Shown here one piece after another: positions 3,573 through 19,828 of a stretch of 21,257 bases of DNA (within the stretch, counting starts at the first letter, position 1; each line of letters opens with the position of its first letter). Position numbers and translations under genes: made by a program. The stretch comes from a virus. Where the stretch lies: the IMG/VR virus record IMGVR_UViG_3300047562_002936, positions 1-21,257 of that record; one strand, given 5' to 3'. The notes beneath the pieces are model-generated. The model searched no databases. It was not told where the DNA came from and saw only the letters and a program-made list of their open reading frames with translations.

Positions 3573-3580
3573 TATTTATT
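3573..3580 (-). promoter_or_regulatory. possible T4-type late promoter element (AATAAATA) before gp8
   Basis: The minus strand reads CTAATAAATAAATAAAA between the giant gene and gp8, and AATAAATA matches the T4 late -10 element TATAAATA at 7 of 8 bases. It overlaps the stop codon of the giant gene. The expected start site would leave only about ten bases before the gp8 ATG, and the tract is simple A/T sequence, so chance similarity is quite possible. Confidence 0.3.
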
Positions 3581-6500
3581 AGTTATAATTTAGATATTTA
3601 AGTGGATTCACTCTTCTCACAATTGGTGCTGTTGAAATTCCAACTAATCCATTATTTGAGAGTGTGAATGACTTTGGTGTGGCTCTGCTATCAGATTCAA
3701 TTCTTCCCCAACTATATTCACCGAAGAAAGAACTATAACCAATACCAGAGAGACCATTATAATCAGAAACACTCACAGTAACTTGAGCAACATAAGTCAG
3801 ACCAATACCAACAGCATCAGTCTGTGCAATTGATACTGCAGCAACCTCATAAACATTATCGATGTAAGAAGAACCAATTGAAAGGTTTGAACCATTACTG
3901 TACAGAGATGTTAATCCATTTCCAACATTTGAGTTGAATACAACAAAATAATAACCAGTTTGAATTCCACTTACAGTAATTCCAGTACCAACTATTGTAG
4001 AATCTCTTAAGAAAGAGTTTTCTGGAATAATCAAGTCAAAAACTAGTCCAGTAGATGCAACCCCAACAGAAACCGTTGAAATTCCCGAGACAATACCAAA
4101 ATCACCTGAGTAGTTTACATTAGAAATTTCTTCGGTAGTTGGTGATGGTTCTTCTATAAGAACAACTGGTGGATTTGTATTTGTATATCCAGTTCCAGGT
4201 GATGATACTGATATTGAAGATACAGTTCCTCCAACTGAGATGTTTGCGGAAGCCGTTGCTCTTTGAGTTGACCCAAGACCAACTGGATTGGAGATAGTTA
4301 CCTCTGGATTTGTTGAATATCCAACACCACCATTAGAAATTATCACTGAGGAGATAGTACCAGCTGCAGATACTAAAGCAGTTGCAGCAGCAGAAACTAT
4401 GGTATCTTGTGAGATAATTTCAATCTTAGTTCTAAATGCTTCGGTAACATTTTCTTTTTCACTATCAAAGAATGTTTTCAAACTCTCCACAAAAATTACA
4501 GTTGAACCAACACCAACACTTTGAATTATGTTCGTAGATGGTTGAATGAGTGGTTCGTAGATTGTTCTGTCCTTAGAAACTTCCTTTCCATCGATGAACA
4601 AGTCCTCAGTTTGTCTGCACCAGATTAATGGTCTCTCAAGATTGGAATTTTGAGTAATTCCTGGTCCTGGATACACATTTGTATTGATAGTGTCTACCGA
4701 AACAACCTCCGTTACAATTCTATCATTCTGCTTCAGGGAAAGTTGCTCACTATCAAGTCTAACGAGGTCTCCAATCTTTATGGTCTCCAAAATATCAACT
4801 TCACGAACATCAACATCACCAGTTCCCTTATAAAATACAATCTTGCAGGTGTCCCCAACTTTTGGAGCTTCGGTGAATGTTATATTACTTCCACCATTAA
4901 AGATATATCCTTGACCGGGAACTTGTAAAATATCATTTAAGAATACAATAAGGGTTGACTGAACATCAATTGATGAACCAGGTTTTGCTTTAATAGACTT
5001 CTGCTCACCATTAAAGAATAATGGGAACGAAACTCTAATACCATCAAACAGAGAATCTATTGGGTCAAATACTTCCAAGTCACCAATAGTCCATCCACTG
5101 AAACTATCACTATCAGTTCTTTCTATAGAAATTTGGAATTCTGAGAATGATAGTGAAGTATTTGTAGGAATGCCAACCGTTCCTCCAATTGATACTGTCA
5201 GAACTTCCCCTTGTCCATATCCATAACCAAGATTTTTTATTTCAAAATCAATTACACTAGAACCTTGTCCAACAACGATATCAACAGTAGCCTCTGTTCC
5301 AAATCCAGATACTGATGATGAACTATAAATCAGTGGAATATCATTATACGAAAGAGGTTCATCAAATACAACTATTGGTGGATTTGTGGAGGTATAACCA
5401 ACTCCTGGATTTGTGATTGCAACACTTACGATATTTCCACCACTAATAGCAGCAGTTCCGATAAATTCGATATTTGGAGTTCCAGTGCTAGAAGTTGCAA
5501 CTCCAACATTTACTACTGTCTGAACTCCTTCTCTATATCCAGAACCACTATTTCCAATACTGATTGATTGGATTGTTCCGGATGCAGACACAACTGCAGT
5601 GCCACCAGCAGCAACTAAAGGTTGATATCCAAAACCAGATGTTGAACCGACAGAAACTATAATTCCACCAACAGGGACATTGGAAGAATTTACATCATAT
5701 AAAGCGGAAGTTGCAGTTCCAGTAAACTGTACACTAGTAATACCAACACTCTCTACGAGAGTATAATTTGATTGGTCTTCAACTGTGGATGAAATATTCT
5801 TTTGTCTTGGAACTTGGAAAATCTCATTAATTAATATAATAGCATTTCCAGTTGAAATTCCAGATATGTCAGTGCTATTAGACTTAAGTGTAAATTCAGT
5901 TCTAATGCCAGTAAATGACTGTGATATGTCATCAAAGATATAGTTCTTAGAATATGTTTCGGATGTGCTATTTTCTACACCAGACCTTATAAAGGTTCTA
6001 CCACTAAAAGTAGAATGTGTAGTAATTCCAGTCCAATCTCTTTGATTTGGAGTATTTGAAGATGTTCCAATTGGAACTGGTCCATATGGAGCTGTTATAA
6101 AGTTAATTGTATTATCAACAATATTATAATTTCCATTAACCTTAGTCACCAATGAATATTGTGCATGAGTTGCCAGTCCAGTTCCCATCCAAGACCTTTC
6201 AACAAGAAGAACATTAGTGCTTCCAAATCCAACAGAATTTACTCTTACTATTTCATCATTAATCTTAAGAAGATCTCCACCAAATATTGAAGTTATTCCA
6301 ACCAAAGAAATTGTATCATCTATTGTTAAAATTTCTAAATCATTACTTGTTGTTACGGCAGTCGATACAACTGGTGATTGTATTACATTATCAATTGAAA
6401 TGAGTGTTTTTGCATTTTGATTCTTTGCAGTAAATGTATGCAAAGTACCTATTCCAACAGATGTAATGTCTAATGCAATTGGTAAAGTCTTAAGTGCATT

Positions 6501-9500
6501 TTCAGCACTGGAAGCAAGTTTAATATTCAAATCATCAACTTTAATTGCATAGACTGAAGATGGAAGTTTGTCTGTAGTTCCAATTCCAACAAATGATGTT
6601 GAAGCAATACCAATAGACTGTGTTGTTCCAGCTCCTGCATTTGAATAAACAAGTTCTTCACCAGTTACGAAGAAGTGACCTGGAATTCTAATTGTATCCT
6701 CAGAAACATTTACTATTGATGAATTATTACCTTCAAAGTTTCTTTCAAAAATTGGCAGTTGTTTATGAGTGAGATTAAATTGTCTTCTAACATCAGTAAA
6801 TGTTCCTCTATATTCTCCATGTCCAGTGTCTATTGAACCACTTTCCAAGTCAATAACAGTATCTGATAAGTCAGTATCGACAACTCGCATAGCATTTTGG
6901 AATACTCTTACTTCAACATCAATATTTGCAACTGGAGTAAAATAAAGTTGAACATTAGAACCTGTAATTCCAGCTCCAACAGTTCCCAGTCCAGATTGAG
7001 TAAATATTTCACCAAATTCAACAATAGAAGCTTGAGTTCCATCATCAACAACTACAACTTCGGACATTTGAGTTGCATTATTTGTCATGTCATTAACTGA
7101 CACGATGTAGTATGATGCATTGTAATTTGAATTATTATATTCAAATACAGTATTTTGTACTGGAGAAGTTGATGATGCGATTGATGTGTAACTCGACTCT
7201 AACAATCCAGTGTTGAGAACCTGAGTTCCTATTCCAGTTGAAGATGTATCTCCAATAGAAACTCTCAGTGTATTAATTACATAAGAAACTCCAACTCCAA
7301 CATATGGGGTGAAGTTCAAATTGACATTAGAACCCGAGAATGCTGCTCCATAGGTTCCTAAACCAACTATTGAGTATGATGATGAACTATCATCTGTGAG
7401 TTGTCCATAGTCAATAATTTCTATATTAGTTCCATCATGAACTATAGAAATTTCATCGAATTCGTAGTAAGAATCATCAGTAGCGGCAATAGAGACTAAA
7501 ACTTTAGATGAAGTATATGTAGAGGCAATTCCTACTAATGTAGTTTCTCCAGTAGTTCCAGATGGAATTATTTGATTGGATGTTTGAATATCTACAACAT
7601 CACCCAAAGTGGTTGTTCCAACACCTGCTATTGCGTCCTCCAAGTTATAAGAGACGTAACTAACGTCAAAATTATTAACCTCATAATCTACTGGGTAGAA
7701 TAAAAGGTTTCCTTCATCTCCAGAGATGGAAACATCAAATGAACCCATGTTATTTACTGTCTGGATTCTTCCATATTGGTTAATATAGACAGAGCTATCA
7801 TTATGTAAGATTGATACCAGGTATAACTGCCTCTCTGCAGTAAATCTTCTATCTTTTACATATGTTATGAATTTTCTAATTCTTCCAGAATCTAATCTAA
7901 ATCTATCTACCACACTAAATGGAGTGGATCTTGGATTGCTGTTAAATTCTTCACTAATATCATCAATCAGCAATACTCGGTTTCCAATAGACTCAAAATA
8001 GTCTTGAAGTGTTGTGGAACCAAGTACAATTTCATCAGAGACTACATTTGAATCTATTGTCAAAGTCCTTTCAGTTGCTAAATCGAAATCACTAACACAA
8101 TTAAATCCAGTTAGACTAACCAAATCTGCTATTCCCGAAAAATCACCAAGGTTCTGCTCTGTAGAAATTCCAGTGAAATCTTGACCAGAAGACTCTACAA
8201 CCAAATCACTAAATTTCTTAAATCCAGCAGTATGGTTTGTTGCATCAACAACATCGTCCCATTTTTCCAACTCAACTTTAGACTTGATAGAATATGAGAA
8301 ATATTGATAGTAATCACTATCGTGTATTCTTTGGAAGTTATTATTTAAGAATCCTCTTTCAGTTTCCCAACCCTTTCTAACAATAGATGATGCTGAAGTA
8401 TTGTATAGTGCATTATATTCTTCGACAAAAGAAATAATAGCTTGAGAACCTGAAGAAGATGCTGTTATCTTTTGACTCTGCTCAAATGTATCTTCACTAA
8501 GAACTTTAAGTATTTCGTTTAAAGAATCCCATTCATTAATCGTTCCAATAGCACCATTAGATGAAACCAATTCGTCATTAAAGAATTGATTTTTTTCTAA
8601 AGTTATATCAAAAATTGGGAAGAATTTTTCTGGTGTTACTCTACCAGAAGAATAAGTCAAACTAAAGGTTCCAGGATCTTCATTTTCATCCAAGTATTCT
8701 GACAAATTATAAGTTATTGTCCCATTAGCACCACCAATATTTGGATCTATTGAGGTTAAAGTGAATAAAGCATAGTCATATGCAGATGAATTGTATCCTC
8801 TTAAGGTAGTTGCAGTACCAACACTTGTATTTTCAATAAGAACTTTATCACCAACTGCAAAAGGATAATCACTTATGTTGCTATAACTTACTGCCAATCC
8901 AACCGTAACATTCTTGGTAACACTGTTAAATGTTATTGAATTAATCCCAATACCATTTGAATTATTCGTTGGAATTATCAGTGGAGTCTTATTATTAATA
9001 CCCTTAGTATTCTTTAGAATAGTAACAGCACTATCTCCGATGTTATATGAAAGATTTACATCATCAATTACTTCATTCGTAACTGAATCTATAACAATGA
9101 GATTTGGAGATATTGTATAATTTTTTCCAACTGATGATATTCCAATATTTTTGAAAGTGGATAATGTAGACACCTTCAAAATTTGAGGAAGTTTTGCCGT
9201 TGGTCTTAAAGTTTTATCTGCGGAATATTCAAATCCAATATCTTCAATTTCAGTTGAAAGAATATTTCCAATTGAGTCTGAAGATGGTACTAATAATGTA
9301 CCAGATCCAGTCGAAGAATATACTGAAGATATTCCTGGTAAAGAATCGTACATCTTACCACCAGAAATAATATTAAAGTCATTGATTTCACCAAATGCAG
9401 ATAGTGAATTGGTGGTATAAGATAATTTTGCTTCAGTCGAAAGATATGACGATCTTTCTGGTTGGATTGGTATATTATATGAAAAAGTATTAGTTGTGAT

Positions 9501-12500
9501 TCCAGAAATTGAATAAATTCCAGAATAAGAACTATCTACTACATCAATTCTGTTATTAGATTGTACATTTTCATTATCAACAATTATCTGTAAATTCTCT
9601 TGGTCATTTTCATCTATGTTAACTGGTTCTAATCCATAATATATTACACTAGGAATATTATTCGACACACTTAAAGTCAACTTAGCTGTTGTACTAACTC
9701 CAATAGTACCACTTCTAGAAATTTCAAATCCACCAAAACCAGAAGTTTCAAAAATATTTTTTAAATTTTCATCACTATAAAGATTAAAATCAAATGCTGG
9801 ATATCTTATAGAATTTTTTAAATAAGACAATGAATTGTCAGATAAGTCGAAGATAATCGATTGATTCTTAGTCGCAACAATTGGTGGATTAACTAACGAT
9901 AATGTTCCAGATGATGCGCTCGTTAAATCGATAACAACAGGAATTCTTAGAGTTGCGTTATAATAGGTTTCTGCAAGTTTGAATGTATTGTCATCTATAA
10001 CAACAATATAATAAATTCCATTATTAACAAGACCACCAGATGGAGAAGATGAAGTGTGAATTACTTTTTGTCCATTCGTATAACCATGAGATGTTAATGT
10101 GATTGAATCCGTTGAAGTGTTGACATCTCCAGATAAGAAGTCTTTTGGATTTACAACCAACCTACGGTTATATTCATTATACTTTAAAGTATATGTTGTT
10201 GATATTCCAGATGAGCAATCAACAGAAACAGAATCTTTAACATTAAGTCCATGAGTTGATGCTGTAGATACTGTAACAAGATTTTTATTTACCTTTCCAG
10301 TAATTACATCATCATAACTTGTTTGGAAGCTATGAATTACGCCTGTACCTTCGTTAGTAAAATAGAGAATATCTGTAAATACGCTACTATTAATTCCTAC
10401 AAAGTTTCCAGTGGAACCCAAACCAACTCTATTGGTTGCAATACCAATCAAATCATTTGTAATTCTTGCGGCATATACAATTTGATTTTCTGTGAGTTGG
10501 AAAGATGATGACCCATCAGTTGAAACTGAAATTGCAGTATCACCACCAGAAGAATAGACTAACTTATCACCAGTATTCAAATTGTGATTTGGCAGATAAA
10601 TTGATCTAGTAGGAATGAACAAAGAACTAACACCAACACCAGGATTTGAGAAACTTAAGGTTGACCCAATTCCAACACCAGATGTAGTTCCCAATCCAAC
10701 AGATTCTACTGGGTTGAAGTAAATTTGAGTATTATACTTATATGGGAATAGTGTTGTAGTTAATCCTACGGTAAAAGTAAATTTCCTAGATTGCTCATAA
10801 AGAATAGAAGCTACTGTATGAGATGAACCGACAGTGCCATCATACTCTCTTAAAACTCTTATTCTTCCGGATGGTTGATCAATATTTAATACCTTTACCT
10901 TTTCAGAATCTATCTCAAATACATCATTCTCTCTAATAAATGGATAATTTAGTTGCCCAGAAACACTAAAATATGTAACTATGCCAGTTACTGAAGTGGA
11001 ACCAATCCCAGAATTGAGTGAGAAATTATCAGATCTAACACCAATATTATAAAAACCATTCAATTCTGTACCAAAAGTGCTTATTCCACTAATCTTAACT
11101 AAGTCAAGATTTAGCAGATTGTGTGTGGAAGTTGAAAATGCTACAAAACTTGAATTTCCAGTAAGGGGGACAAATTCAACATTTGATAGTGATGTGCTAT
11201 TGACCGAAATTTGATTTACTAACTTTCCTTTTACTGAAGATACCTTTACAGATGCTCCTTGCCCACCTGTTCCTTGATTATTAAAAATTACTACATCATT
11301 AACTTTATAATCCAATCCTCCAGTTACAATTCCAATAGAGTCTAACGAACCCTTCTTAGTATTTCTGATAACTGAAGTTTGTTTTCTTATTTTATTTGAA
11401 TCTACTATAAAGTCATATCCACTTCTTTGGTTGAGTAAATTATATGGAGTAGTATTTCTCAGCAAGTCAACTTGATTCAAATCAACAGAATCTTGATTGG
11501 AACTAGTGCTAAAATTATAATCTATTGGTTTTGATTTAAATTCATTTCCAATAAAATATGGGAAGACTGGTTTTCTATAATTTCTAAGAGGTCCAGAAGA
11601 CTCTACACTAAAACCATTAATTGTAGAAAAATATGCATAAACTCCATTTGGATATTCTGGAGTTACACAGAATCTTCCATTATATTGGTCGAGGTCTCCA
11701 GACGCATTATACTGATAGTCTTCTACAAAAAATCCTTCTGGATAAAGTGAAGTTCTTGGTCTACCAGACTCAACAGAAACTTTATATCCAGATTCTAAAG
11801 CCTTTACAGAACCTCCTGTAATCGTTGAATATCCATATGGACCATAAATTGGATTTCCATCATATGCCCATCCAATAATAGGAGAGTGTGAATCTGAAAG
11901 TGCTTCTCTATTATTCTGAATTACTAAGTCTGGTGAAAATACTGTCGTACCATTAATTAATTTCTTAGTAGTAATGGTCTGTCTTAATTTTCTTGGAGCA
12001 TAGAGATGTGTATATTGCAGTCCATAATCCGAATTAATTCCATTATCAATAACTCCATCATCATCGGAAATTAATTCACTCTGAAGATTTCTTTCAACTA
12101 AGTTAATTGTCCATGTCTTTGGAACAGATTGTAAATTAGCACCAGAACCTGCAGGGACAACATTTATGATTGTTCTTGAGGTCTCAAATCCAACTCCACC
12201 ATAAACAACCTTAACTTCTGAAAGGGAACCATTTACTATAACAGGAGTTAATTCTGCACCATAACCATTCCCGATAATTTCAAATGATGGTGGAGAATTA
12301 TACTCTCTTCCTGAGTTAGTAACTAAAACTTCAGAAATAGCACCATTAGATATTACTGGAATTACTTCAGCTCCAGTTCCACTATTCAAATTAAATGTTG
12401 GTTGTCTGTTGAAGTTTATTACCTCTTCTGAACCATAATTTGAACCACCAGATTCTAAGAATACTGACTTAATTTGACCTCTTACAATTGGTTGAGCTAT

Positions 12501-15500
12501 TGCGTTAAAGTCTTGATTTGTTCTTGTAGATACTCCTACAATTCCAGATACATTTACAACTATTGGTTCATAATTGAATTGATGATATCCAGAACCTACA
12601 GAAGTTAAATCTACATATTGATTTGACTTAAAGTAAAAATCTACAGTTGTTGTAACTCCAACCACTGCAGAACCAACACCTACCGTAGAAGCAACACCTA
12701 CTTTAGATAACTTAAATGAGTCACTATCCAGTGCTGTGACGTAGTAAGATTGTCCATCAACCAAACCACCAACTACACTACCTGTAGTATTGTATACTAT
12801 TATTTCTCCAGTGCTGTAATTATGATTTTTGGCAAAAATTGTATTTGATGCTGTATTAATCCCAGATGATGGTATAGAAATCTTTCTATTCTTATATCCA
12901 CTTCCCTTGTCGTAGACATTTATGTAGGATATCTTCTTCTTAATATTTGAAGAAGCAAATCTATGAACTCCAGTTCCATATGAAGTAAGATTGATTGTGT
13001 TTATGCCAGCTGCTGCATCTTCATATGTTTTATGAAGTTTGACGGTAAAGGAATCTTGTACAGAAACATAATAAGAAGAATCTGTTGATATTCCCCCAAC
13101 TGCTTGCTGTCCATCTGGTTTGTAGATTATTCTTTCAGCATCCCTAAACTTATGATATGAAGAAAATCCAATTGTATCATTGGTTAAATCAACCAATCCA
13201 GAAGACTCGATTGCATTAAAAGACACTGAATGTTCAAAAGAGAATAACTCTGCCTTAGCTTTTGCTCCACTACCACCACCACCAGATATAGTTACGATAG
13301 GTTCGGAAATATAGTCAAATCCACCATCGATGATGTTAATTTTTTCTACTTGACCATGAACTTCACAATATCCAGTTGCTCCAGTTCCAACACTATCTGT
13401 TATTGATAAGGTTGGTGGATTTATTACATCATAGTTACTTCCTTCCGAAAGAACATTTATTTCTTCAAGTGGACCGTAGAAAATTTTATCCTTTGACTTA
13501 TAATTTAAAATTTCTACACCATTTACGAGAATTCCAATTTGTCCAAATTTAGTTTCGTGAGAATTATCTGTATTCTCTGGATTTTGTATTTTTCTTACTA
13601 ACTTTTGAGTGTCGAGAGTTTGATATGCAAATTCACTAAAAATTAACTGACTGTTTGTTACAGTTCCAGAAAGGTTTATATAATTTCCTTTGTAAATATT
13701 TTCTCTACTACGAGATAATTTAATGGTGAGTGGGTCAACTCTTTTTACATAATAAGTTCCTTCAGTTATGTTTAAAGAATTTGATTCCGATTCTGGTCTG
13801 TAAATTACAGAATCTCCAGTGTAGAAATAATGTCTTCCGATTGTTAAATTTTCACCACTGAATGTTCCAGAGAAAGTTATTTCTCTGTTTCTTATTCCAA
13901 GTGATTCTCCAAGATATGATGGAAGTGAAGGTGAAGTTACATAGTAAGAACCCAACTGGTCAGTGTAGACATTTTGAACATTAGTTGAGTAATTTGATGC
14001 TTCTGGGAAGTTTGTATAACTTCCTTTTGATAATACTTTTTGTATCTTATCTTTTTTAGTAATATCAATTATTCCTTGACCACTTACAGTAAAGGTTTTT
14101 TCATTTAAAACTGATAATATACTAGTATTAATATCAGTTCCATCACTGAGAATAAGTTTTACAGAGTCTCCTCTATAGAAATTGTGATTATCGTATACTC
14201 TTATCTGATAGGTAAAATTAGAAATATCAACTAAACTAATTGAATCTATATCATATTTCGATGCAACATTATAAATCCAATTATTCGATTTAATATCCGA
14301 AGAGTCTTCTCCTAAAGTTTTAATTACAATTTTATTTCCAGGATTGTAATATCTCGCACCATCATCAATTTTTAACTCAGATAATACACCAGTTACTCTA
14401 AGTTTTACTACATTATCTGTTCCAATTCCAGAATATCCATATGCATACGAATTAATTCTAACATTCTGACCAGATGATAAGTTTTGGGTTATTCCAGAAC
14501 ATCCATAAAACTGAGTATATGATTTTGATTCGTAAGAAATTGTTACTGAAGTTCCATTTTCCAAATCAGCAACGATTTCACCAGAACTCGGAAATCCAAC
14601 AGTTGAATCAACATCCAAAACTGTAGATCCAATTGAAGCCTCGGTTATTATTTTAGTCTGGGGATGAACAGAAAACTCACCAGAAACCGAACCCCTTACA
14701 CTAATATCTTTATTGTAATCATAATCTAAACTAATTACATGATATTCATTATCACCTCTGAATATTTTTTCAATCTTGTTTATTGATCCAAATGCTTGAT
14801 TGAAATTTTCATATTGGTCCTGATATAATGTTCTATTTTCCAAGTCCTCAGGATTACCCTCAAGTGCTTCAACAACTAAGTCTTTTGTGATTCTATACTG
14901 AGCATCTGAGGGAATAAACAGATAATCTCTTGGCTTAATGACTTCAACATCTTCACCATACAAGGCTCTAAAAAGAATCTCGAAAGATTGGTCTGTTCCT
15001 TTAGATGAATAAAAATCTTTAGACTGCTTTATAAACAGATTTGCATTTAAATCTGAATCAAATTCTCTATCTTCAAACCCAGGAACAAGTTGTCTCTTTA
15101 CCTTCTTATAAAACTCTTTTAAAAATAAAACACTCAGATTTAAAACCAAAGAATCTGTATCATGTTCTACGATTTCTGAGGTAGAAAATACTAAATGATC
15201 TGGTTTGTTTTTATCTTGATATGAAGTGACTCCACTAAATCCACGTACACATCCATTAAAAGCAGTTTCGGTCTTTGAAGTATATGTGATGATTTCCGAG
15301 TCAATCTGTATAATTCCATAGGAATCTGGAAATCCAGAAGTGGATACTACATTAATTGTATCATCGGAAAATCCTATAGATGAAGTTGTACTGGTAGAAT
15401 CGGTAAGATTTGTAAGTTGTTCTACTTTAATATACTTGTCAATATTTTGAAGAATATCAAGAACAGCACCTTGATTTTCTACAGATGTGTAATATTGGGA

Positions 15501-15593
15501 TAAAAACTCTCCGACTAATGGAAAATCTTCCCTAACGAAAGCTGGGAGTTGATTTTCAACAACTGAACTAATCTTGATTCGAGTGTCTACCAT
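3579..15593 (-). CDS. giant (4004 aa) gp7-like baseplate wedge protein built of beta repeats
   Basis: One uninterrupted frame lies between gp6 and gp8, exactly where T4 has gene 7. Residues about 16-57 and 150-245 resemble the C-terminal helical region of T4 gp7; the key match is DFYSSKGTDQSFEILFRALY (193-212), followed by GEDVEV. A small beta insertion (about 66-125, GFPDSYGIIQIDSEIITY then NGCVRGFSG) splits this match. The rest is Gly/Ser/Thr-rich beta sequence. It includes about six copies of an NH..TGD..VY...YYV..D..FKL module (near 586, 811, 921, 1668, 1833 and 2971). It also has GSGY-type repeats (755-780, 1038-1154, 3321-3404, 3731-3814) and a YHYH-like module (1190-1340, with GWAYDGNPIYGPYGYS). 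Further elements are a NHTAGFKKF motif near 2447, a duplicated block (2700-2775 and 2820-2900) and LIVFLNDILQVPG near 3540. The C-terminus ends PLKYLNYN. T4 gp7 is 1032 aa, so this is about four times larger. Being structural is near certain; gp7 identity is inferred from order and the N-terminal motif. The start is 4 bases after the gp6 stop, without a Shine-Dalgarno. Confidence 0.85.
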   Translation of the reverse strand: MVDTRIKISSVVENQLPAFVREDFPLVGEFLSQYYTSVENQGAVLDILQNIDKYIKVEQLTNLTDSTSTTSSIGFSDDTINVVSTSGFPDSYGIIQIDSEIITYTSKTETAFNGCVRGFSGVTSYQDKNKPDHLVFSTSEIVEHDTDSLVLNLSVLFLKEFYKKVKRQLVPGFEDREFDSDLNANLFIKQSKDFYSSKGTDQSFEILFRALYGEDVEVIKPRDYLFIPSDAQYRITKDLVVEALEGNPEDLENRTLYQDQYENFNQAFGSINKIEKIFRGDNEYHVISLDYDYNKDISVRGSVSGEFSVHPQTKIITEASIGSTVLDVDSTVGFPSSGEIVADLENGTSVTISYESKSYTQFYGCSGITQNLSSGQNVRINSYAYGYSGIGTDNVVKLRVTGVLSELKIDDGARYYNPGNKIVIKTLGEDSSDIKSNNWIYNVASKYDIDSISLVDISNFTYQIRVYDNHNFYRGDSVKLILSDGTDINTSILSVLNEKTFTVSGQGIIDITKKDKIQKVLSKGSYTNFPEASNYSTNVQNVYTDQLGSYYVTSPSLPSYLGESLGIRNREITFSGTFSGENLTIGRHYFYTGDSVIYRPESESNSLNITEGTYYVKRVDPLTIKLSRSRENIYKGNYINLSGTVTNSQLIFSEFAYQTLDTQKLVRKIQNPENTDNSHETKFGQIGILVNGVEILNYKSKDKIFYGPLEEINVLSEGSNYDVINPPTLSITDSVGTGATGYCEVHGQVEKINIIDGGFDYISEPIVTISGGGGSGAKAKAELFSFEHSVSFNAIESSGLVDLTNDTIGFSSYHKFRDAERIIYKPDGQQAVGGISTDSSYYVSVQDSFTVKLHKTYEDAAAGINTINLTSYGTGVHRFASSNIKKKISYINVYDKGSGYKNRKISIPSSGINTASNTIFAKNHNYSTGEIIVYNTTGSVVGGLVDGQSYYVTALDSDSFKLSKVGVASTVGVGSAVVGVTTTVDFYFKSNQYVDLTSVGSGYHQFNYEPIVVNVSGIVGVSTRTNQDFNAIAQPIVRGQIKSVFLESGGSNYGSEEVINFNRQPTFNLNSGTGAEVIPVISNGAISEVLVTNSGREYNSPPSFEIIGNGYGAELTPVIVNGSLSEVKVVYGGVGFETSRTIINVVPAGSGANLQSVPKTWTINLVERNLQSELISDDDGVIDNGINSDYGLQYTHLYAPRKLRQTITTKKLINGTTVFSPDLVIQNNREALSDSHSPIIGWAYDGNPIYGPYGYSTITGGSVKALESGYKVSVESGRPRTSLYPEGFFVEDYQYNASGDLDQYNGRFCVTPEYPNGVYAYFSTINGFSVESSGPLRNYRKPVFPYFIGNEFKSKPIDYNFSTSSNQDSVDLNQVDLLRNTTPYNLLNQRSGYDFIVDSNKIRKQTSVIRNTKKGSLDSIGIVTGGLDYKVNDVVIFNNQGTGGQGASVKVSSVKGKLVNQISVNSTSLSNVEFVPLTGNSSFVAFSTSTHNLLNLDLVKISGISTFGTELNGFYNIGVRSDNFSLNSGIGSTSVTGIVTYFSVSGQLNYPFIRENDVFEIDSEKVKVLNIDQPSGRIRVLREYDGTVGSSHTVASILYEQSRKFTFTVGLTTTLFPYKYNTQIYFNPVESVGLGTTSGVGIGSTLSFSNPGVGVSSLFIPTRSIYLPNHNLNTGDKLVYSSGGDTAISVSTDGSSSFQLTENQIVYAARITNDLIGIATNRVGLGSTGNFVGINSSVFTDILYFTNEGTGVIHSFQTSYDDVITGKVNKNLVTVSTASTHGLNVKDSVSVDCSSGISTTYTLKYNEYNRRLVVNPKDFLSGDVNTSTDSITLTSHGYTNGQKVIHTSSSPSGGLVNNGIYYIVVIDDNTFKLAETYYNATLRIPVVIDLTSASSGTLSLVNPPIVATKNQSIIFDLSDNSLSYLKNSIRYPAFDFNLYSDENLKNIFETSGFGGFEISRSGTIGVSTTAKLTLSVSNNIPSVIYYGLEPVNIDENDQENLQIIVDNENVQSNNRIDVVDSSYSGIYSISGITTNTFSYNIPIQPERSSYLSTEAKLSYTTNSLSAFGEINDFNIISGGKMYDSLPGISSVYSSTGSGTLLVPSSDSIGNILSTEIEDIGFEYSADKTLRPTAKLPQILKVSTLSTFKNIGISSVGKNYTISPNLIVIDSVTNEVIDDVNLSYNIGDSAVTILKNTKGINNKTPLIIPTNNSNGIGINSITFNSVTKNVTVGLAVSYSNISDYPFAVGDKVLIENTSVGTATTLRGYNSSAYDYALFTLTSIDPNIGGANGTITYNLSEYLDENEDPGTFSLTYSSGRVTPEKFFPIFDITLEKNQFFNDELVSSNGAIGTINEWDSLNEILKVLSEDTFEQSQKITASSSGSQAIISFVEEYNALYNTSASSIVRKGWETERGFLNNNFQRIHDSDYYQYFSYSIKSKVELEKWDDVVDATNHTAGFKKFSDLVVESSGQDFTGISTEQNLGDFSGIADLVSLTGFNCVSDFDLATERTLTIDSNVVSDEIVLGSTTLQDYFESIGNRVLLIDDISEEFNSNPRSTPFSVVDRFRLDSGRIRKFITYVKDRRFTAERQLYLVSILHNDSSVYINQYGRIQTVNNMGSFDVSISGDEGNLLFYPVDYEVNNFDVSYVSYNLEDAIAGVGTTTLGDVVDIQTSNQIIPSGTTGETTLVGIASTYTSSKVLVSIAATDDSYYEFDEISIVHDGTNIEIIDYGQLTDDSSSSYSIVGLGTYGAAFSGSNVNLNFTPYVGVGVSYVINTLRVSIGDTSSTGIGTQVLNTGLLESSYTSIASSTSPVQNTVFEYNNSNYNASYYIVSVNDMTNNATQMSEVVVVDDGTQASIVEFGEIFTQSGLGTVGAGITGSNVQLYFTPVANIDVEVRVFQNAMRVVDTDLSDTVIDLESGSIDTGHGEYRGTFTDVRRQFNLTHKQLPIFERNFEGNNSSIVNVSEDTIRIPGHFFVTGEELVYSNAGAGTTQSIGIASTSFVGIGTTDKLPSSVYAIKVDDLNIKLASSAENALKTLPIALDITSVGIGTLHTFTAKNQNAKTLISIDNVIQSPVVSTAVTTSNDLEILTIDDTISLVGITSIFGGDLLKINDEIVRVNSVGFGSTNVLLVERSWMGTGLATHAQYSLVTKVNGNYNIVDNTINFITAPYGPVPIGTSSNTPNQRDWTGITTHSTFSGRTFIRSGVENSTSETYSKNYIFDDISQSFTGIRTEFTLKSNSTDISGISTGNAIILINEIFQVPRQKNISSTVEDQSNYTLVESVGITSVQFTGTATSALYDVNSSNVPVGGIIVSVGSTSGFGYQPLVAAGGTAVVSASGTIQSISIGNSGSGYREGVQTVVNVGVATSSTGTPNIEFIGTAAISGGNIVSVAITNPGVGYTSTNPPIVVFDEPLSYNDIPLIYSSSSVSGFGTEATVDIVVGQGSSVIDFEIKNLGYGYGQGEVLTVSIGGTVGIPTNTSLSFSEFQISIERTDSDSFSGWTIGDLEVFDPIDSLFDGIRVSFPLFFNGEQKSIKAKPGSSIDVQSTLIVFLNDILQVPGQGYIFNGGSNITFTEAPKVGDTCKIVFYKGTGDVDVREVDILETIKIGDLVRLDSEQLSLKQNDRIVTEVVSVDTINTNVYPGPGITQNSNLERPLIWCRQTEDLFIDGKEVSKDRTIYEPLIQPSTNIIQSVGVGSTVIFVESLKTFFDSEKENVTEAFRTKIEIISQDTIVSAAATALVSAAGTISSVIISNGGVGYSTNPEVTISNPVGLGSTQRATASANISVGGTVSSISVSSPGTGYTNTNPPVVLIEEPSPTTEEISNVNYSGDFGIVSGISTVSVGVASTGLVFDLIIPENSFLRDSTIVGTGITVSGIQTGYYFVVFNSNVGNGLTSLYSNGSNLSIGSSYIDNVYEVAAVSIAQTDAVGIGLTYVAQVTVSVSDYNGLSGIGYSSFFGEYSWGRIESDSRATPKSFTLSNNGLVGISTAPIVRRVNPLKYLNYN

Positions 15594-15597
15594 GTCT

Positions 15598-17511
15598 TTA
15601 TTGTCTTATACGGCTTCCGTTTGTGTAACTTGTTGTTGGGTCATAGTATGAACCAGAGATATCGGAACCTGAGGAAATTTCATCCGACTTCATATTTAAA
15701 ATACTCTTACTAATATCTAGTTGCAAATAAAGATCCTGTTTTCCAATAACATCATTTGAGATTGGAATTGCAGAAATTTCAATTATTGGATTTCCATTAT
15801 TGTTTTTGGAAGTTCCAACTATATTAATTGGGTTTAAAATAATTTCTCCTTTTTCATAACTTATAGTTCCAACTGACCTTCTTTTAATAGTTGGTGTATC
15901 TGAATTTGGGTCTGAGAATAGGAAAATGGTTCCAGTTAAACCGTCTGTATTTGGCAAATCTCCGAGATATACTGTGCCATCAATTCCACTGACGGTAAAT
16001 CCTGAAGACTTTATATTATATCCTTCAACACTCTTTATATAAAAACCATTTCCATAACAAATTTCATATTCAGCTAACTGATTTAATATTACACCTAAAT
16101 CTCTTCTGATTTGAACTTTAGTAATATTTGATGTGATAGATTCGTGACTATCATCTACAATTTTTTGGAATTTGCTATATTTAAACTTTGCACCATATCT
16201 GTTCAGTTCTGACGAATCTGCATATGAGTTTATGTTAGAAGAAACTATACTCTTTACAAAGTCCGCATCTGGTGCCAAGTTGGTATTGTAATATGCTGTG
16301 GTATCAACTTCCACATAAATGTACTTCAAGTCTATAATTTCGGGAACAATTCCAGCAACACTATAATTTCTTAATTTATTTTTTAAATTATCCTTGATGC
16401 TGTTAGGAACAAATTGTCCATTATAAGGTTTTATGCTAATAAAAACTCTTCCGTATTGTGGTGGAGATAAAGTCTCACCTCCATATACTGAAACGGATTG
16501 AGTTTCGGGATAAATTTGAGGAACTATTGTCTCATAGTCTGCTGCAGTAACTGCTCTATTCTGAGATGCATAAATTCTTGGCGCATAATTTTTAATAGAG
16601 TCTACTGATTCAATCTCTTTTCCACCTTCCGATGCTATATTTGTGGTAATGAGTGAAATTCCATTTGTTACCGAAATTCCGTTATTATCAAGCAATCTTC
16701 CATTAAAGGTAAAAGAAGATAATCCATTCGCAGACTCACCACTGGTTACAATGTATGAAGCTTCGATATAATTTAATGCTTGTAATTTCTCACCAAAAAT
16801 ACCATCACCAAAAATAAGTTCATATCTTTGATCTTCAACCTCTTGTATAAAGAATACTCTAGATGATGAAGTAACAGAGAATAAACTATTCGACTGTACA
16901 AATTTTCTTGAATTTGTACTTGATTCAGTATCTCTTACAATAACATTAATTGAAGAACTATCAATATTTGGATTATTTAAGATATATTTCTGAGGTGGTG
17001 CTGGATTTTCTGATTGTACAGTAAAATTGTCAACAACATAAGTTCCTTCATATACTGATATATTATCAAAAAATGCAATTCCATTTACAACTGGAACAGT
17101 AATATTACTTGGAACTGTAAATGTATAACTTTCTCCACCAAATGCTGCTGTTGTCGCAACAACTCCCTTCTGAAGAGTTAATGTAATTGGGTTAGTTTGA
17201 AATCCTGTAGTATCTACGAAAAAAGAAATATTTGCTTTTGCTGCTGTTCTAGACCTTGGAACATATCCAATGTTTCTTGCAAGAGAAACTACGTTTTCTC
17301 TTAATGTCGCACTATCAATAAAAACCTCATTGCTAACCATGTTAGCATTATATGAGGAAATATATGTATTATATGCTAAAGTGTCTATGAGAACGGATAA
17401 GTTAGACCCCTCAAAATCGTAGTCAGTAAAATTTGAATTCGATCTAAGGTAATCCTTAATCGAAGTTTTTATCTGGTCGAAGTCTAAATTCGTAAAATTA
17501 ACTAATGGCAT
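15598..17511 (-). CDS. gp6: baseplate wedge protein gp6 (baseplate J-like)
   Basis: This is the homologue of T4 gp6, which forms the inner ring of the baseplate wedge (637 aa here, about 660 in T4). The N-terminus shows the conserved gp6 signature: NFTNLDFDQIKTSIKDYLRS, DYDFEGSNLSVLIDTLAYNT, then VFIDSATLRENVVSLARNIG (within residues 5-83). The central part has the IFGDGIFGEKL loop near 232. The baseplate-J-type motif SQNRAVTAADYETIVPQIYP lies near 320, followed by YGRVFISIKP. The start ATG overlaps the gp25 stop by one base (TAATG), so translation is probably coupled, which fits the missing Shine-Dalgarno. Order gp25-gp6-(gp7)-gp8 matches T4-like phages. No anomaly in length or frame. Identification is very secure. 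Confidence 0.97.
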   Translation of the reverse strand: MPLVNFTNLDFDQIKTSIKDYLRSNSNFTDYDFEGSNLSVLIDTLAYNTYISSYNANMVSNEVFIDSATLRENVVSLARNIGYVPRSRTAAKANISFFVDTTGFQTNPITLTLQKGVVATTAAFGGESYTFTVPSNITVPVVNGIAFFDNISVYEGTYVVDNFTVQSENPAPPQKYILNNPNIDSSSINVIVRDTESSTNSRKFVQSNSLFSVTSSSRVFFIQEVEDQRYELIFGDGIFGEKLQALNYIEASYIVTSGESANGLSSFTFNGRLLDNNGISVTNGISLITTNIASEGGKEIESVDSIKNYAPRIYASQNRAVTAADYETIVPQIYPETQSVSVYGGETLSPPQYGRVFISIKPYNGQFVPNSIKDNLKNKLRNYSVAGIVPEIIDLKYIYVEVDTTAYYNTNLAPDADFVKSIVSSNINSYADSSELNRYGAKFKYSKFQKIVDDSHESITSNITKVQIRRDLGVILNQLAEYEICYGNGFYIKSVEGYNIKSSGFTVSGIDGTVYLGDLPNTDGLTGTIFLFSDPNSDTPTIKRRSVGTISYEKGEIILNPINIVGTSKNNNGNPIIEISAIPISNDVIGKQDLYLQLDISKSILNMKSDEISSGSDISGSYYDPTTSYTNGSRIRQ

Positions 17512-17912
17512 TATCGTGTTGGCTGTAATGCGAATGATAACTGTTGTGGTAATGCATCAATACCAACAATATAATAATTGATGGTTACATTAAATTCATT
17601 ATTATCATAGTTTGCTGCAACTTTTACATCAATTAATTCAACTCTTGGTTCATAGTTATTAATGGTATTTTCAATCTCATCTCTAATAATAGATGCTGAA
17701 ATATCATCAATGTTCTCAAATAATGATCTAGAAACTCTAGAACCAAGATTTTCATTAAAAAATCTTTCACCTGGAAGGGTAAACACAAGATTTCTTACTG
17801 ATCTAGCTATTGCTGTCTCATTTTTAATCGCAATCATGTCAGAATTCAGAGGATTAATCTGAAATGACATGCTGAGATCTTTAAATTCTTTGCTTACCCG
17901 TTGTACAGGCAT
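17511..17912 (-). CDS. gp25: baseplate wedge protein gp25 (lysozyme-like/TssE fold)
   Basis: This is the homologue of T4 gp25 (133 aa here, 132 in T4), the small wedge protein that links the gp6 ring to the sheath and is related to TssE of type VI secretion. Visible hallmarks are NLVFTLPGERFFNENLGSRV (residues 41-60), SRSLFENID, and the conserved EPR motif in NNYEPRVELIDV (85-96), which in this family contacts the core bundle. Despite the historical lysozyme label, it is a structural protein. It begins the late baseplate block: a GATAAATA late-promoter motif lies about 22 bases upstream, and no Shine-Dalgarno is visible. Its stop overlaps the gp6 start by one base. Very secure. Confidence 0.97.
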   Translation of the reverse strand: MPVQRVSKEFKDLSMSFQINPLNSDMIAIKNETAIARSVRNLVFTLPGERFFNENLGSRVSRSLFENIDDISASIIRDEIENTINNYEPRVELIDVKVAANYDNNEFNVTINYYIVGIDALPQQLSFALQPTR

Positions 17913-17932: not shown

Positions 17933-18100
17933 TTATTTATCAGTGTTTTTGAATTCGTAAAGAGGTTCCGTTCCATATTCCCAGTCATCATAATCATCAT
18001 CATTACGAATTTTTTCATGAATTTCGTTTTGATGGAAAAAATCATGCTTTTTCGGTGTCAAATCATCATTATTGATTTCTCTAAGTAGTCTCTGGTCCAT
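17933..18100 (-). CDS. small acidic protein of unknown function, 55 aa
   Basis: A 55-aa frame not recognised as a known family. It begins MDQRLLREINNDDLTPKKHD and has an unusually acidic, aromatic C-terminal half (RNDDDYDDWEYGTEPLYEF). Support for it being real is a clear Shine-Dalgarno (GGAG, 6 bases before ATG 18100), a perfect 6-bp stem-loop directly upstream of that site, and the exact fill of the gap between the 205-aa gene and gp25. Its TAA lies in the late-promoter motif that serves gp25. There is no signal peptide, membrane segment or cysteine. No function can be assigned. Confidence 0.75.
   Translation of the reverse strand: MDQRLLREINNDDLTPKKHDFFHQNEIHEKIRNDDDYDDWEYGTEPLYEFKNTDK
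17934..17941 (-). promoter_or_regulatory. T4-type late promoter element (GATAAATA) before gp25
   Basis: The minus strand reads GATAAATAAG, matching the T4 late -10 element TATAAATA at 7 of 8 bases; NATAAATA elements are known in T4-like cyanophages. It lies about 22 bases upstream of the gp25 ATG, placing a start site near 17925, at the boundary between the accessory cassette and the baseplate block. It overlaps the stop codon of the 55-aa gene. Late phage factors (gp55/gp33/gp45 type) would be needed; none are in this window. Confidence 0.5.
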
Positions 18101-18109
18101 TTTTAGCTC

Positions 18110-18127
18110 CTGATTGGTTAAAATCAG
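18110..18127 (-). promoter_or_regulatory. stem-loop abutting the ribosome-binding site of the 55-aa gene
   Basis: CTGATT-TTAACC-AATCAG is a perfect 6-bp inverted repeat with a 6-base loop. The GGAG Shine-Dalgarno begins within its last base (AATCAGGAGCTAAAAATG). It lies in the 33-base gap between the 205-aa gene and the 55-aa gene. It could tune initiation or protect a processed 3' end. There is no following U tract, so it does not look like an intrinsic terminator. Confidence 0.4.
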
Positions 18128-18133
18128 AACTTT

Positions 18134-18751
18134 TTACGGGGTTGCTATCCCGTTATCGATGTAAAATCCTTTTCTTAGATAGTCTTCATCCTCTATAAAC
18201 ACTAAATTTTCTATTTTTTCTATATTTTGGTCTTTCCAAACGGGAATTGCAACACTATTTCCATATCTAAAGTCTGGATTTCTTCTAAAATGCACTTCAA
18301 TTAAGTGATTTCCAATAAATTCACAATTAATCCACTCATAATTCCCTTTTAGACTATTTAATAGAGGTGGAAAATCTACTTCACAATCAACTTTAGTCCA
18401 CTTTTTCCATCTGTAAAGAGGATCATATTCATCTCTTTCACCCAGAACAACTAACTTCGACTTTTTATTCTGGTAATCAACACTATAATGCTCCCCCTCA
18501 AAGACTTCACACCAAAATTCAGCTGGATGAAAGTGGTCAGTGTACTTATAAATCATCTCCTTACGAGAAAATCGTCCCATACCAAGTAAATTAATACTCG
18601 GTCGGACGATATAATATCCTGAATAAGGAACAGGCACCCCTGTAGGACCACAGAGATGCCTTAGACGATGATTTAGAAGTAGTTTATTATAAACCCATAA
18701 GTCATCTGGATGTATCGAATTCCACTCTTGACCAGAATCAAAATAATACAT
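18134..18751 (-). CDS. conserved phage protein with ATP-grasp-like motifs, 205 aa
   Basis: Not firmly recognised, but three blocks occur in the order seen in ATP-grasp enzymes. YYIVRPSINLLGMGRFS (residues 46-62) resembles the nucleotide-binding strand with Arg-Pro. FWCEVFEGEHYSVDY (79-93) resembles the E..ieG.E.sVd strand. HLIEVHFRRNPDF (149-161) resembles the metal-binding iEiN.R region, with His in place of the usual Asn. At 205 aa it is shorter than typical ATP-grasp proteins (about 300 aa), so it would be a minimal or divergent form. There is no signal peptide or membrane segment. It lies between a 46-aa basic protein and the 55-aa acidic one, downstream of a glycosyltransferase, which suggests a ligase or modification role. 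Start chosen at 18751, 22 bases after the preceding stop; no Shine-Dalgarno seen. That it is a gene is certain; the function is a hypothesis. Confidence 0.85.
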   Translation of the reverse strand: MYYFDSGQEWNSIHPDDLWVYNKLLLNHRLRHLCGPTGVPVPYSGYYIVRPSINLLGMGRFSRKEMIYKYTDHFHPAEFWCEVFEGEHYSVDYQNKKSKLVVLGERDEYDPLYRWKKWTKVDCEVDFPPLLNSLKGNYEWINCEFIGNHLIEVHFRRNPDFRYGNSVAIPVWKDQNIEKIENLVFIEDEDYLRKGFYIDNGIATP

Positions 18752-18773: not shown

Positions 18774-18914
18774 TTATTTACCTTGACCCCGATAACGCTT
18801 CTTACGACCATTACGAGATGTTGCACTCAACAAAGTACGTGAAGAACGACCTTGACGAGTTTTCTTAGGTGCTCCTGGTTCAAATACAGTTTTGTTGCCA
18901 CCACCTTTAGCCAT
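18774..18914 (-). CDS. small highly basic protein, 46 aa
   Basis: A 46-aa frame beginning MAKGGGNKTVFEPGAPKKTR and ending NGRKKRYRGQGK. It is strongly basic (about 15 Lys/Arg and very few acidic residues), Gly-rich at both ends, with no hydrophobic core. I recall similar short basic proteins in marine T4-like cyanophages but no named function. A strong Shine-Dalgarno (GGAGGAAATCTAATG) sits inside the end of the preceding gene, and the ATG overlaps that gene's TAA by one base. The composition suggests an unstructured protein that binds nucleic acid or acts as a polyanion counterpart; this is inference. It is followed by the 205-aa gene. Confidence 0.85.
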   Translation of the reverse strand: MAKGGGNKTVFEPGAPKKTRQGRSSRTLLSATSRNGRKKRYRGQGK

Positions 18915-19060
18915 TAGATTTCCTCCAATTCGATTTCATTAATGTCATAGTTTTCATTTTGATAATACTCTTGAGAGAGATTATCTAGGACCTCCACACA
19001 TTCTTCATAAGAGAGGTCCGTATATATCTTACGTCCTTTATATAAGATATTAAAAGCCAT
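18914..19060 (-). CDS. small acidic protein of unknown function, 48 aa
   Basis: A 48-aa frame starting MAFNILYKGRKIYTDLSYEE and ending in an acidic tail (NEIELEEI). The central LSYEECVEVLDNLSQEYYQN looks like one amphipathic helix. It resembles the short 'Y-x-G-x-K-x-Y..LSYEEC' phage proteins in general style, and the unlinked 63-aa protein at 19887 also has a DLSYEEL stretch. The ATG immediately follows the glycosyltransferase TAA (TAAATG), and its TAA overlaps the next ATG by one base, so three genes are probably translationally coupled. Function unknown. Confidence 0.8.
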   Translation of the reverse strand: MAFNILYKGRKIYTDLSYEECVEVLDNLSQEYYQNENYDINEIELEEI

Positions 19061-19828
19061 TTAGATTACTCGTGTTTTCTCGTGTCCTACTCGAATACGT
19101 GGGTCGCACCAAATCTCAAATCCTTCTTCTTTTGCATCAAGACAGAATGAAACATCTTCTCCACACATATCTTGTACTGCACCAGATTCAAAGACTTGCA
19201 TCTTAGGAGCAAACCAAGGATATTCAAGATTCTCAAAGACACCCTTCTTAATCAGTACCCAACCGAAACCAGTATAGTCTACTGTGAAAGGCTTACGACG
19301 TTTCGAGATACTCTCCACAGTCTCGTGATTCATCACACCACCATTCTTACGGAAATCATCCTCTTCTAACCAATGAGCCACTGAAGTCGTGTGCCCATCT
19401 TCTGTGGCATACCATCCTGCAACAATCTCCTTCTCTTCACCTTCCTCATTCAGAGCAAGATCACAGAGTTGCCAGAATTTATTTGTGTCAAATACAATGT
19501 CACTATCAATCCACAGTTGATAATCATATTGCAGTTTACCGTCCCAAGGAATTTGCTTAGGACCACGAAGTACATTTGCACCAAGTACTTTACAACGTGC
19601 AAAGTTAACCATCGATGAGTAATCTTGAGAAATCTGAATACTCATGCCATTCTGTACTAAGTCAAAGCACAGTTGCACAAATGCTTTCAGAAAAATAAAA
19701 GAACATCCACGACCAGGAAGACAGAATACAATACTCTTCCCTTTCATTCGTTCTTTAATTGCAGCATAGTCCCAATCTGCTTCTTTAGGTTTGGGTGCTG
19801 CTGCTTTTACAGTAAATCCTTTTGCCAT
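19061..19828 (-). CDS. GT-A-fold glycosyltransferase (GT2-like), 255 aa
   Basis: Likely transfers a sugar from a nucleotide-sugar donor. The sequence shows a beta-strand with a loop (SIVFCLPGRGCS, residues 32-43), NFARCKVLGANVLRG (75-89), and a DxD-type metal/donor motif in QLWIDSDIVFD (104-114, Asp-Ser-Asp at 108-110). The acceptor-side region carries DYTGFGWVLIKKGVFENL (184-201), with MCGEDVSFCLDAKEEGFEIW (221-240) and a terminal RVGHEKTR; the acidic GED and the late His are typical of GT-A enzymes. No signal peptide or membrane segment, so cytosolic. Its own near-consensus sigma70 promoter lies upstream, with AAGGTGA as Shine-Dalgarno about 10 bases before ATG 19828. T4-like cyanophages often carry such genes. 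The acceptor (virion protein, DNA or host surface glycan) is unknown. Confidence 0.88.
   Translation of the reverse strand: MAKGFTVKAAAPKPKEADWDYAAIKERMKGKSIVFCLPGRGCSFIFLKAFVQLCFDLVQNGMSIQISQDYSSMVNFARCKVLGANVLRGPKQIPWDGKLQYDYQLWIDSDIVFDTNKFWQLCDLALNEEGEEKEIVAGWYATEDGHTTSVAHWLEEDDFRKNGGVMNHETVESISKRRKPFTVDYTGFGWVLIKKGVFENLEYPWFAPKMQVFESGAVQDMCGEDVSFCLDAKEEGFEIWCDPRIRVGHEKTRVI

Follow-up and report, generated by a model that had tools for sequence, protein, structure and literature searches.

The window, by which we mean the entire 21,257-base stretch analyzed here and the whole of its source record, is part of the baseplate region of a T4-like cyanophage (Kyanoviridae). All genes of the window described below are encoded on the minus strand. 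An open reading frame (ORF) with an ATG start at 18134..18751 encodes a 205-aa protein. It is flanked on one side by genes for a 46-aa basic protein (18774..18914; PHROG 516), which also occurs in other phage loci and is a cyanophage backbone gene, a 48-aa acidic protein (18914..19060; PHROG 3252), and a 255-aa glycosyltransferase-like protein (19061..19828; PHROG 1574), with a weaker match to PHROG 34859 "glycosyltransferase" (E = 3.4e-7). On the other side lies a 55-aa gene (17933..18100), which the ORF list and related loci identify as a shortened relative of an 80-85-aa family. A preliminary description of the DNA had correctly listed these neighbors; it missed the two genes that follow the 55-aa gene, as well as a conserved RNA element that overlaps the 3′ end of the 205-aa ORF. 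The two genes encode the baseplate wedge proteins gp25 (17511..17912; Pfam GPW_gp25, E = 1.6e-14; PHROG 261, E = 1.7e-52) and gp6 (15598..17511; assigned by synteny in 93 of 93 eligible loci and by the gp6 annotation of relatives such as S-T4). A late-promoter-like sequence, GATAAATA (17934..17941, minus strand), overlaps the end of the 55-aa gene upstream of gp25; the late-promoter consensus is NATAAATA (PMC2984593). After gp6, a 4004-aa ORF occupies 3579-15593. Relatives annotate the gene at this position as a baseplate wedge initiator, and a 673-aa part of the ORF matched no Pfam family.

The 205-aa protein belongs to PHROG 3577 (E = 2.4e-57 in a PHROG profile search), a family of unannotated function that occurs in Synechococcus T4-like phages. 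A single scan of viral contigs yielded 328 relatives, and 50 Synechococcus phage records also carry one. Given the PHROG match and these relatives, the ORF is not a chance reading frame. Neither Pfam nor NCBIfam models matched the protein, comparison with PDB sequence profiles gave nothing informative, and a search by peptide patterns found no bacterial relatives. No distant viral relatives were found for the copy in BUCT-ZZ01, which is ~31% identical. In S-SRM01 (L084:5001-5592), the alignment of the homologue is split into two segments, and its coding sequence is annotated as starting at 5101, inside the homologue, possibly because of a frameshift or sequencing error.

Among loci with enough flanking sequence, the gene order around the 205-aa gene is well conserved: the glycosyltransferase-like gene is present in 78/79, the 46-aa gene in 93/95, the 48-aa gene in 68/91, the 55-aa gene in 92/105, gp25 in 102/102, and gp6 in 93/93. 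In other phages, the slot of the 205-aa gene holds a gene labeled PurM (S-BM3, S-SKS1), a dioxygenase gene (P-SSM5), a gene labeled ferredoxin (S-CAM4), or nothing, and S-SRM01 has both the 205-aa gene and speD. Therefore, the 205-aa gene is one of several alternative cargoes of a variable slot between the glycosyltransferase-like/46-aa block and the gp25-gp6 operon. The "PurM" genes (T4-GC_171; L206:747-1436, L207:1774-2490) encode proteins of 229-238 aa that matched no Pfam family, and the label is doubtful for these cyanophage genes. Since their sequences differ from that of the 205-aa protein, we ruled out the "PurM" proteins of S-BM3 and S-SKS1 as homologues. The small ORF that precedes gp25 differs in length between loci (L018:4653-4904; 17933-18100 in the window) and has a C-terminal stretch, IRNDxDYDDWEYGTEP, that is unannotated and shows strong conservation.

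The preliminary description had proposed that the 205-aa protein is an unusually short ATP-grasp enzyme on the basis of three motifs, YIVRPSINLLGMG, FWCEVFEGEHYSVDY, and HLIEVHFRRNPDF, which are indeed present in this order, the order of ATP-grasp proteins. Structure prediction bears this out. An AlphaFold2 model built from a 48-sequence alignment had a mean pLDDT of 89.8 and a pTM of 0.85. When we searched with Foldseek, as had been suggested, the best 50 PDB matches of this model were all ATP-grasp proteins, led by 3df7 (E = 1.7e-5), PylC (2.8e-5), and the graspetide ligase PsnB (3.5e-4), with D-Ala-D-Ala ligases, L-amino acid ligases, LysX/ArgX, and RimK lower in the list. A relative of the ACG-2014f type, 49% identical to the 205-aa protein and modeled in a separate AlphaFold run (pLDDT 79.3), gave 28 matches at E <= 1e-3, every one an ATP-grasp protein, as were all 50 PDB matches listed. 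Both modeled family members are thus predicted to contain the RAGNYA and kinase-like subdomains of this fold. TM-scores against known ATP-grasp structures were modest, mostly 0.4-0.6 when normalized by the query. A profile comparison between the family and a CarB domain aligned 12 columns of the RP...GxG stretch (IVRPSINLLGMG to IIRPSFTMGGSG) with P = 0.015 and a probability of 3%, which we do not take as proof. Judging from the two models, it is nearly certain that the 205-aa protein has an ATP-grasp fold.

We then counted residues at the catalytic positions of the superfamily (PMC4431377) over 48 aligned family members, placing them by motif order and predicted strands rather than by superposition. 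K23, the counterpart of the linker lysine that precedes the RAGNYA domain, is present in 48/48 sequences (and in 20/20 in another count). The position of R50, in strand 2 (residues 45-51), is R in 45 sequences and K in the other 3. The glycine loop G57-M58-G59, which corresponds to the GbG motif between strands 2 and 3, is conserved in 48/48, 48/48, and 47/48 sequences, respectively. All sequences also have R60, located in the loop that follows strand 2. E144, at the position of an acidic metal ligand, lies in strand 4 of the kinase-like part (residues 140-146) and is found in 48/48 sequences. Eight residues further on, the position of E152 is E or D in 48/48 and H154 is conserved in 48/48, such that E152-V-H154 stands where the superfamily has ExN, with H in place of N in all members. 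Apart from the N of ExN, the positions expected to bind metal and nucleotide, whose loss in homologues would have spoken against the proposed assignment, are conserved in all or nearly all of the 48 sequences. Only ~45 residues precede strand 2, and the N-terminal pre-ATP-grasp domain found in most, but not all, ATP-grasp members is missing.

By analogy with the superfamily, the protein would consist of one RAGNYA-like and one kinase-like catalytic subdomain and would hold Mg-ATP between K23, R50, and the GMG loop on one side and E144, E152, and H154 on the other. A carboxylate would be activated as an acyl-phosphate and attacked by an amine or similar nucleophile, making the protein a small ligase. 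We consider it probable, given the modeled fold and the conserved positions, that the protein is an active enzyme and, by this analogy, slightly favor a carboxylate ligase.

Three other views of the protein deserve consideration. The replacement of ExN by ExH in every member, together with the missing N-terminal domain, leaves room for an altered or lost activity. As no substrate partner was recognized either, the protein could be a pseudoenzyme, perhaps a virion or regulatory protein, that binds a nucleotide or other ligand without catalysis. We regard this as unlikely, since the remaining catalytic positions are kept down to ~31% identity, with K23, E144, E152, and also H154 retained in the BUCT-ZZ01 relative, and since the N of ExN is occasionally exchanged for other polar residues elsewhere in the superfamily (PMC4431377). 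Membership in the R2K (CDC123) clade, an ATP-grasp clade that occurs in some phages, might be suggested by the compactness of the protein and by R60, which matches the second K/R in the loop. However, R60 is the only R2K hallmark that fits: R2K proteins have neither the linker lysine nor a GbG loop motif (PMC4431377), whereas the 205-aa family conserves both K23 and GMG, and no R2K Pfam model matched. This assignment is thus extremely unlikely. The third view, put forward in the preliminary description, is that a peptide-modifying enzyme of the graspetide or RimK style acts on the 46-, 48-, or 55-aa proteins. Although PsnB is among the best fold matches and the small genes are nearly always adjacent (the 46-aa gene in 93/95 loci), the 46- and 55-aa genes do not track the 205-aa gene. 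Of 24 annotated phage loci, 19 contain a relative of the 46-aa protein, but the 205-aa gene is present in only three of these 19. Such relatives are found in 16 of the 20 annotated loci that lack the 205-aa gene, and most phage records with the 46-aa protein do not have it. The 55-aa gene is part of the gp25 operon, which has an RNA leader of its own, and it accompanies gp25 in phages without the ATP-grasp protein as well. Because these genes are independent of the ATP-grasp gene, the synteny reflects a shared phage backbone rather than an enzyme-substrate pair. A dedicated precursor peptide that co-occurs with its ligase, as in graspetide systems, was not found among the 46- and 55-aa genes of the annotated phage loci, and we consider peptide modification of these neighbors very unlikely.

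At the 3′ end of the 205-aa ORF, alignment of relatives revealed that conservation of the DNA exceeds that of the protein and that reading frames differ. The conserved sequence, at about 18153-18101 on the minus strand, is an RNA leader that heads the 55-aa/gp25/gp6 operon and is overlapped by the last codons of the ORF (18134..18153; stop codon, 18136-18134). It consists of a hairpin, P1, with an invariant loop AUAG(N)AAC, followed by GUUCU and then by a hairpin at the next ribosome site. In the window, the 5′ strand of P1 is at 18153-18149, the loop AUAGCAAC at 18148-18141, and the 3′ strand at 18140-18136, as supported by sequence and covariation. An A-rich linker (18135-18131) and GUUCU (18130-18126), which is invariant in the leader alignment, come next. 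The ribosome-site hairpin spans 18101..18127, with arms CUGAUU (18127-18122) and AAUCAG (18115-18110), and the Shine-Dalgarno sequence AGGAG of the 55-aa gene (18111-18107) adjoins and overlaps the second arm.

The leader is widespread. It was detected in 88 of 97 loci that had been collected by protein similarity alone, with variants of the ACG-2014f type in five more. Of the remaining four, three (L236, L261, L286) have gp25 directly, with no small ORF, as in S-T4, and in the fourth (L075) the element lies further downstream. gp25 follows within 1.5 kb, behind a small ORF, in 179 of 185 distinct leader copies. A covariance model found one strong match each in 15 of 24 whole phage records (32-53 bits; next best anywhere, 18.8), and the carriers included S-SSM4 and S-CAM7, which were outside the input of the model. 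Unrelated genes can precede it. A few contigs contain a second copy upstream of the 205-aa gene (L034:2302, L035:220). The gene before this copy has an end similar to that of the "PurM"-labeled protein, and the 21-aa ORF after it may be the decayed remnant of a small ORF from a cargo insertion. In S-SCSM1 (L209:2497-2548), the element is within a plastocyanin/PTOX gene cluster rather than before gp25, and a small ORF follows there too.

Compensatory changes support both helices; the counts that follow are of distinct sequences, not of independent events. In P1, pair 4-19 occurs as AU (10), CG (10), GC (3), and UA (2), and pair 6-17 as GC, AU, and UA. The covariation score of P1 was 0.207, compared to 0.084 in shuffled alignments and at most 0.041 in slid controls. 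In a test independent of the original pattern, we required any base but C at the 3′ position of pair 6-17 and allowed every base at the 5′ position. This retrieved 108 distinct places, 102 of them within 1.5 kb upstream of gp25, and the 5′ base was complementary in all 102 (A-T 88, C-G 9, T-A 5), while a control pattern with the closing G-C pair disrupted had gp25 downstream in only 2 of 94. For the ribosome-site hairpin, a perfect arm of at least 5 bp was present in 88% of 156 distinct tails and in 3% after shuffling. When arms were swapped between leaders, CUGAU found its partner in 96% of its own leaders versus 2% of others, CUGUU in 85% versus 0%, and CUAAU in 58% versus 1%.

Could the element instead be coding sequence at the end of the ORF, or serve at the DNA level as a recombination site or late promoter? 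The frame is open through the element in many relatives (tail RDSNPVKSSD), and NATAAATA lies 4-15 nt upstream of it in 12 of 203 copies. However, the window and its close relatives use another frame and stop inside the element, which also occurs behind unrelated genes and shows compensatory changes in two helices. We consider these explanations highly improbable, and the sequence comparisons indicate that the leader is very probably a real, cis-acting structured RNA. We rejected a late promoter as a general explanation, as NATAAATA is found within 40 nt in only 12/203 (shuffled expectation, 4.7). An antisense tRNA, suggested by the recurring tail RDSNPVKSSD, was also discarded: ARAGORN found none, and the tail is the RNA element read in frame.

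How might the leader act? The loop UAG(N)AAC (18147-18141 in the window) is complementary to GUUCU(G/A). The N can be any base and is absent from five distinct copies, as expected of a bulge. Since the columns of this candidate pseudoknot are nearly invariant, covariation is uninformative there; we think it fairly likely, from complementarity, that the pseudoknot exists. GUUCU also pairs downstream, toward the ribosome site, in the minimum free energy fold of all 285 distinct leaders, 28 of which also recruit the 3′ strand of P1 (for example, CUCCUAAAAAGU with ACUUUUAGGAGG in L508). Pairing of the Shine-Dalgarno sequence in the folds was in modest excess, at 0.69 versus 0.59 for shuffled upstream sequence. 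In one state, P1 and the loop-GUUCU pseudoknot would form and the ribosome site would be free; in the other, GUUCU would pair as part of the hairpin in which the ribosome site lies. Because the two pairings of GUUCU are mutually exclusive, they have the logic of a translational switch. A role in translational control is likely on these grounds, and the most likely form would be a bistable switch that acts in cis on the baseplate operon. The chief alternative, in which the hairpin mainly stabilizes the 5′ end of late mRNA, for example against RNase E, has in its favor that NATAAATA lies 5-7 nt before P1 in some phages, which would place P1 at the 5′ end of the transcript. Yet most copies are not closely preceded by such a promoter, the second helix follows the position of the ribosome site and shows covariation, and the invariant loop and GUUCU are more than a protective stem needs. 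We therefore regard end protection as the main role as unlikely.

Taken together, the probable explanation of the locus is a compact ATP-grasp ligase gene beside a gp25-gp6 operon with a bistable RNA leader. PHROG 3577 would change from a family of unknown function to one of exceptionally small ATP-grasp enzymes that have a modified metal motif and are open to testing. The leader, which heads the baseplate operon in much of the Kyanoviridae, abundant aquatic viruses, is absent from Rfam. A search of the window with Rfam covariance models gave no match for it, nor did searches of seven relatives; a snoU61 match to the window (25.8 bits; gathering threshold, 55; E = 0.022) was taken as chance. 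It also escaped the Rfam search published for a phage that carries it, S-CREM1, which gave four RNAs, none at position 95072, where the leader lies (PMC9964418). The leader is apparently undescribed in Rfam and the open literature, and may possibly have been described in subscription literature. There is perhaps an even chance that it represents a new, usually single-copy class of cis-regulatory RNAs of T4-like cyanophages: a bistable element at the head of the small-ORF/gp25/gp6 baseplate operon that switches between an H-type pseudoknot, built around the invariant AUAG(N)AAC loop, and the competing ribosome-site hairpin, and through which a small molecule or phage protein sets late tail-gene translation. 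If the switch is real, these phages would use RNA to control the timing or dosage of tail assembly.

Both parts of the locus can be compared with known systems. With the ATP-grasp superfamily, and most closely with 3df7 of A. fulgidus, PylC, and PsnB, the 205-aa protein shares the predicted two-subdomain catalytic fold and K23, R50, the GMG loop, E144, and E152 at catalytic positions; it differs in its small size, its ExH motif, the short distance of only 8 residues from E144 to E152, and its lack of a pre-ATP-grasp domain and of a match to sequence models. With the R2K/CDC123 clade, it has in common phage occurrence and, past strand 2, a positively charged loop residue (R60). The leader resembles preQ1-I-type riboswitches, which are H-type pseudoknots, and pseudoknot operators in its possible H-type pseudoknot with an A-rich linker near the ribosome site; unlike preQ1-I-type riboswitches, it has no Rfam match, and its pseudoknot is putative. 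The manA, wcaG, and PhotoRC-II RNAs, which have been listed as cyanophage RNAs (PMC2864571), and glnA (PMC9964418) are likewise structured cis-regulatory RNAs of T4-like cyanophages. None of these matches here, and the leader is distinguished from them by being short, usually single-copy, and tied to gp25.
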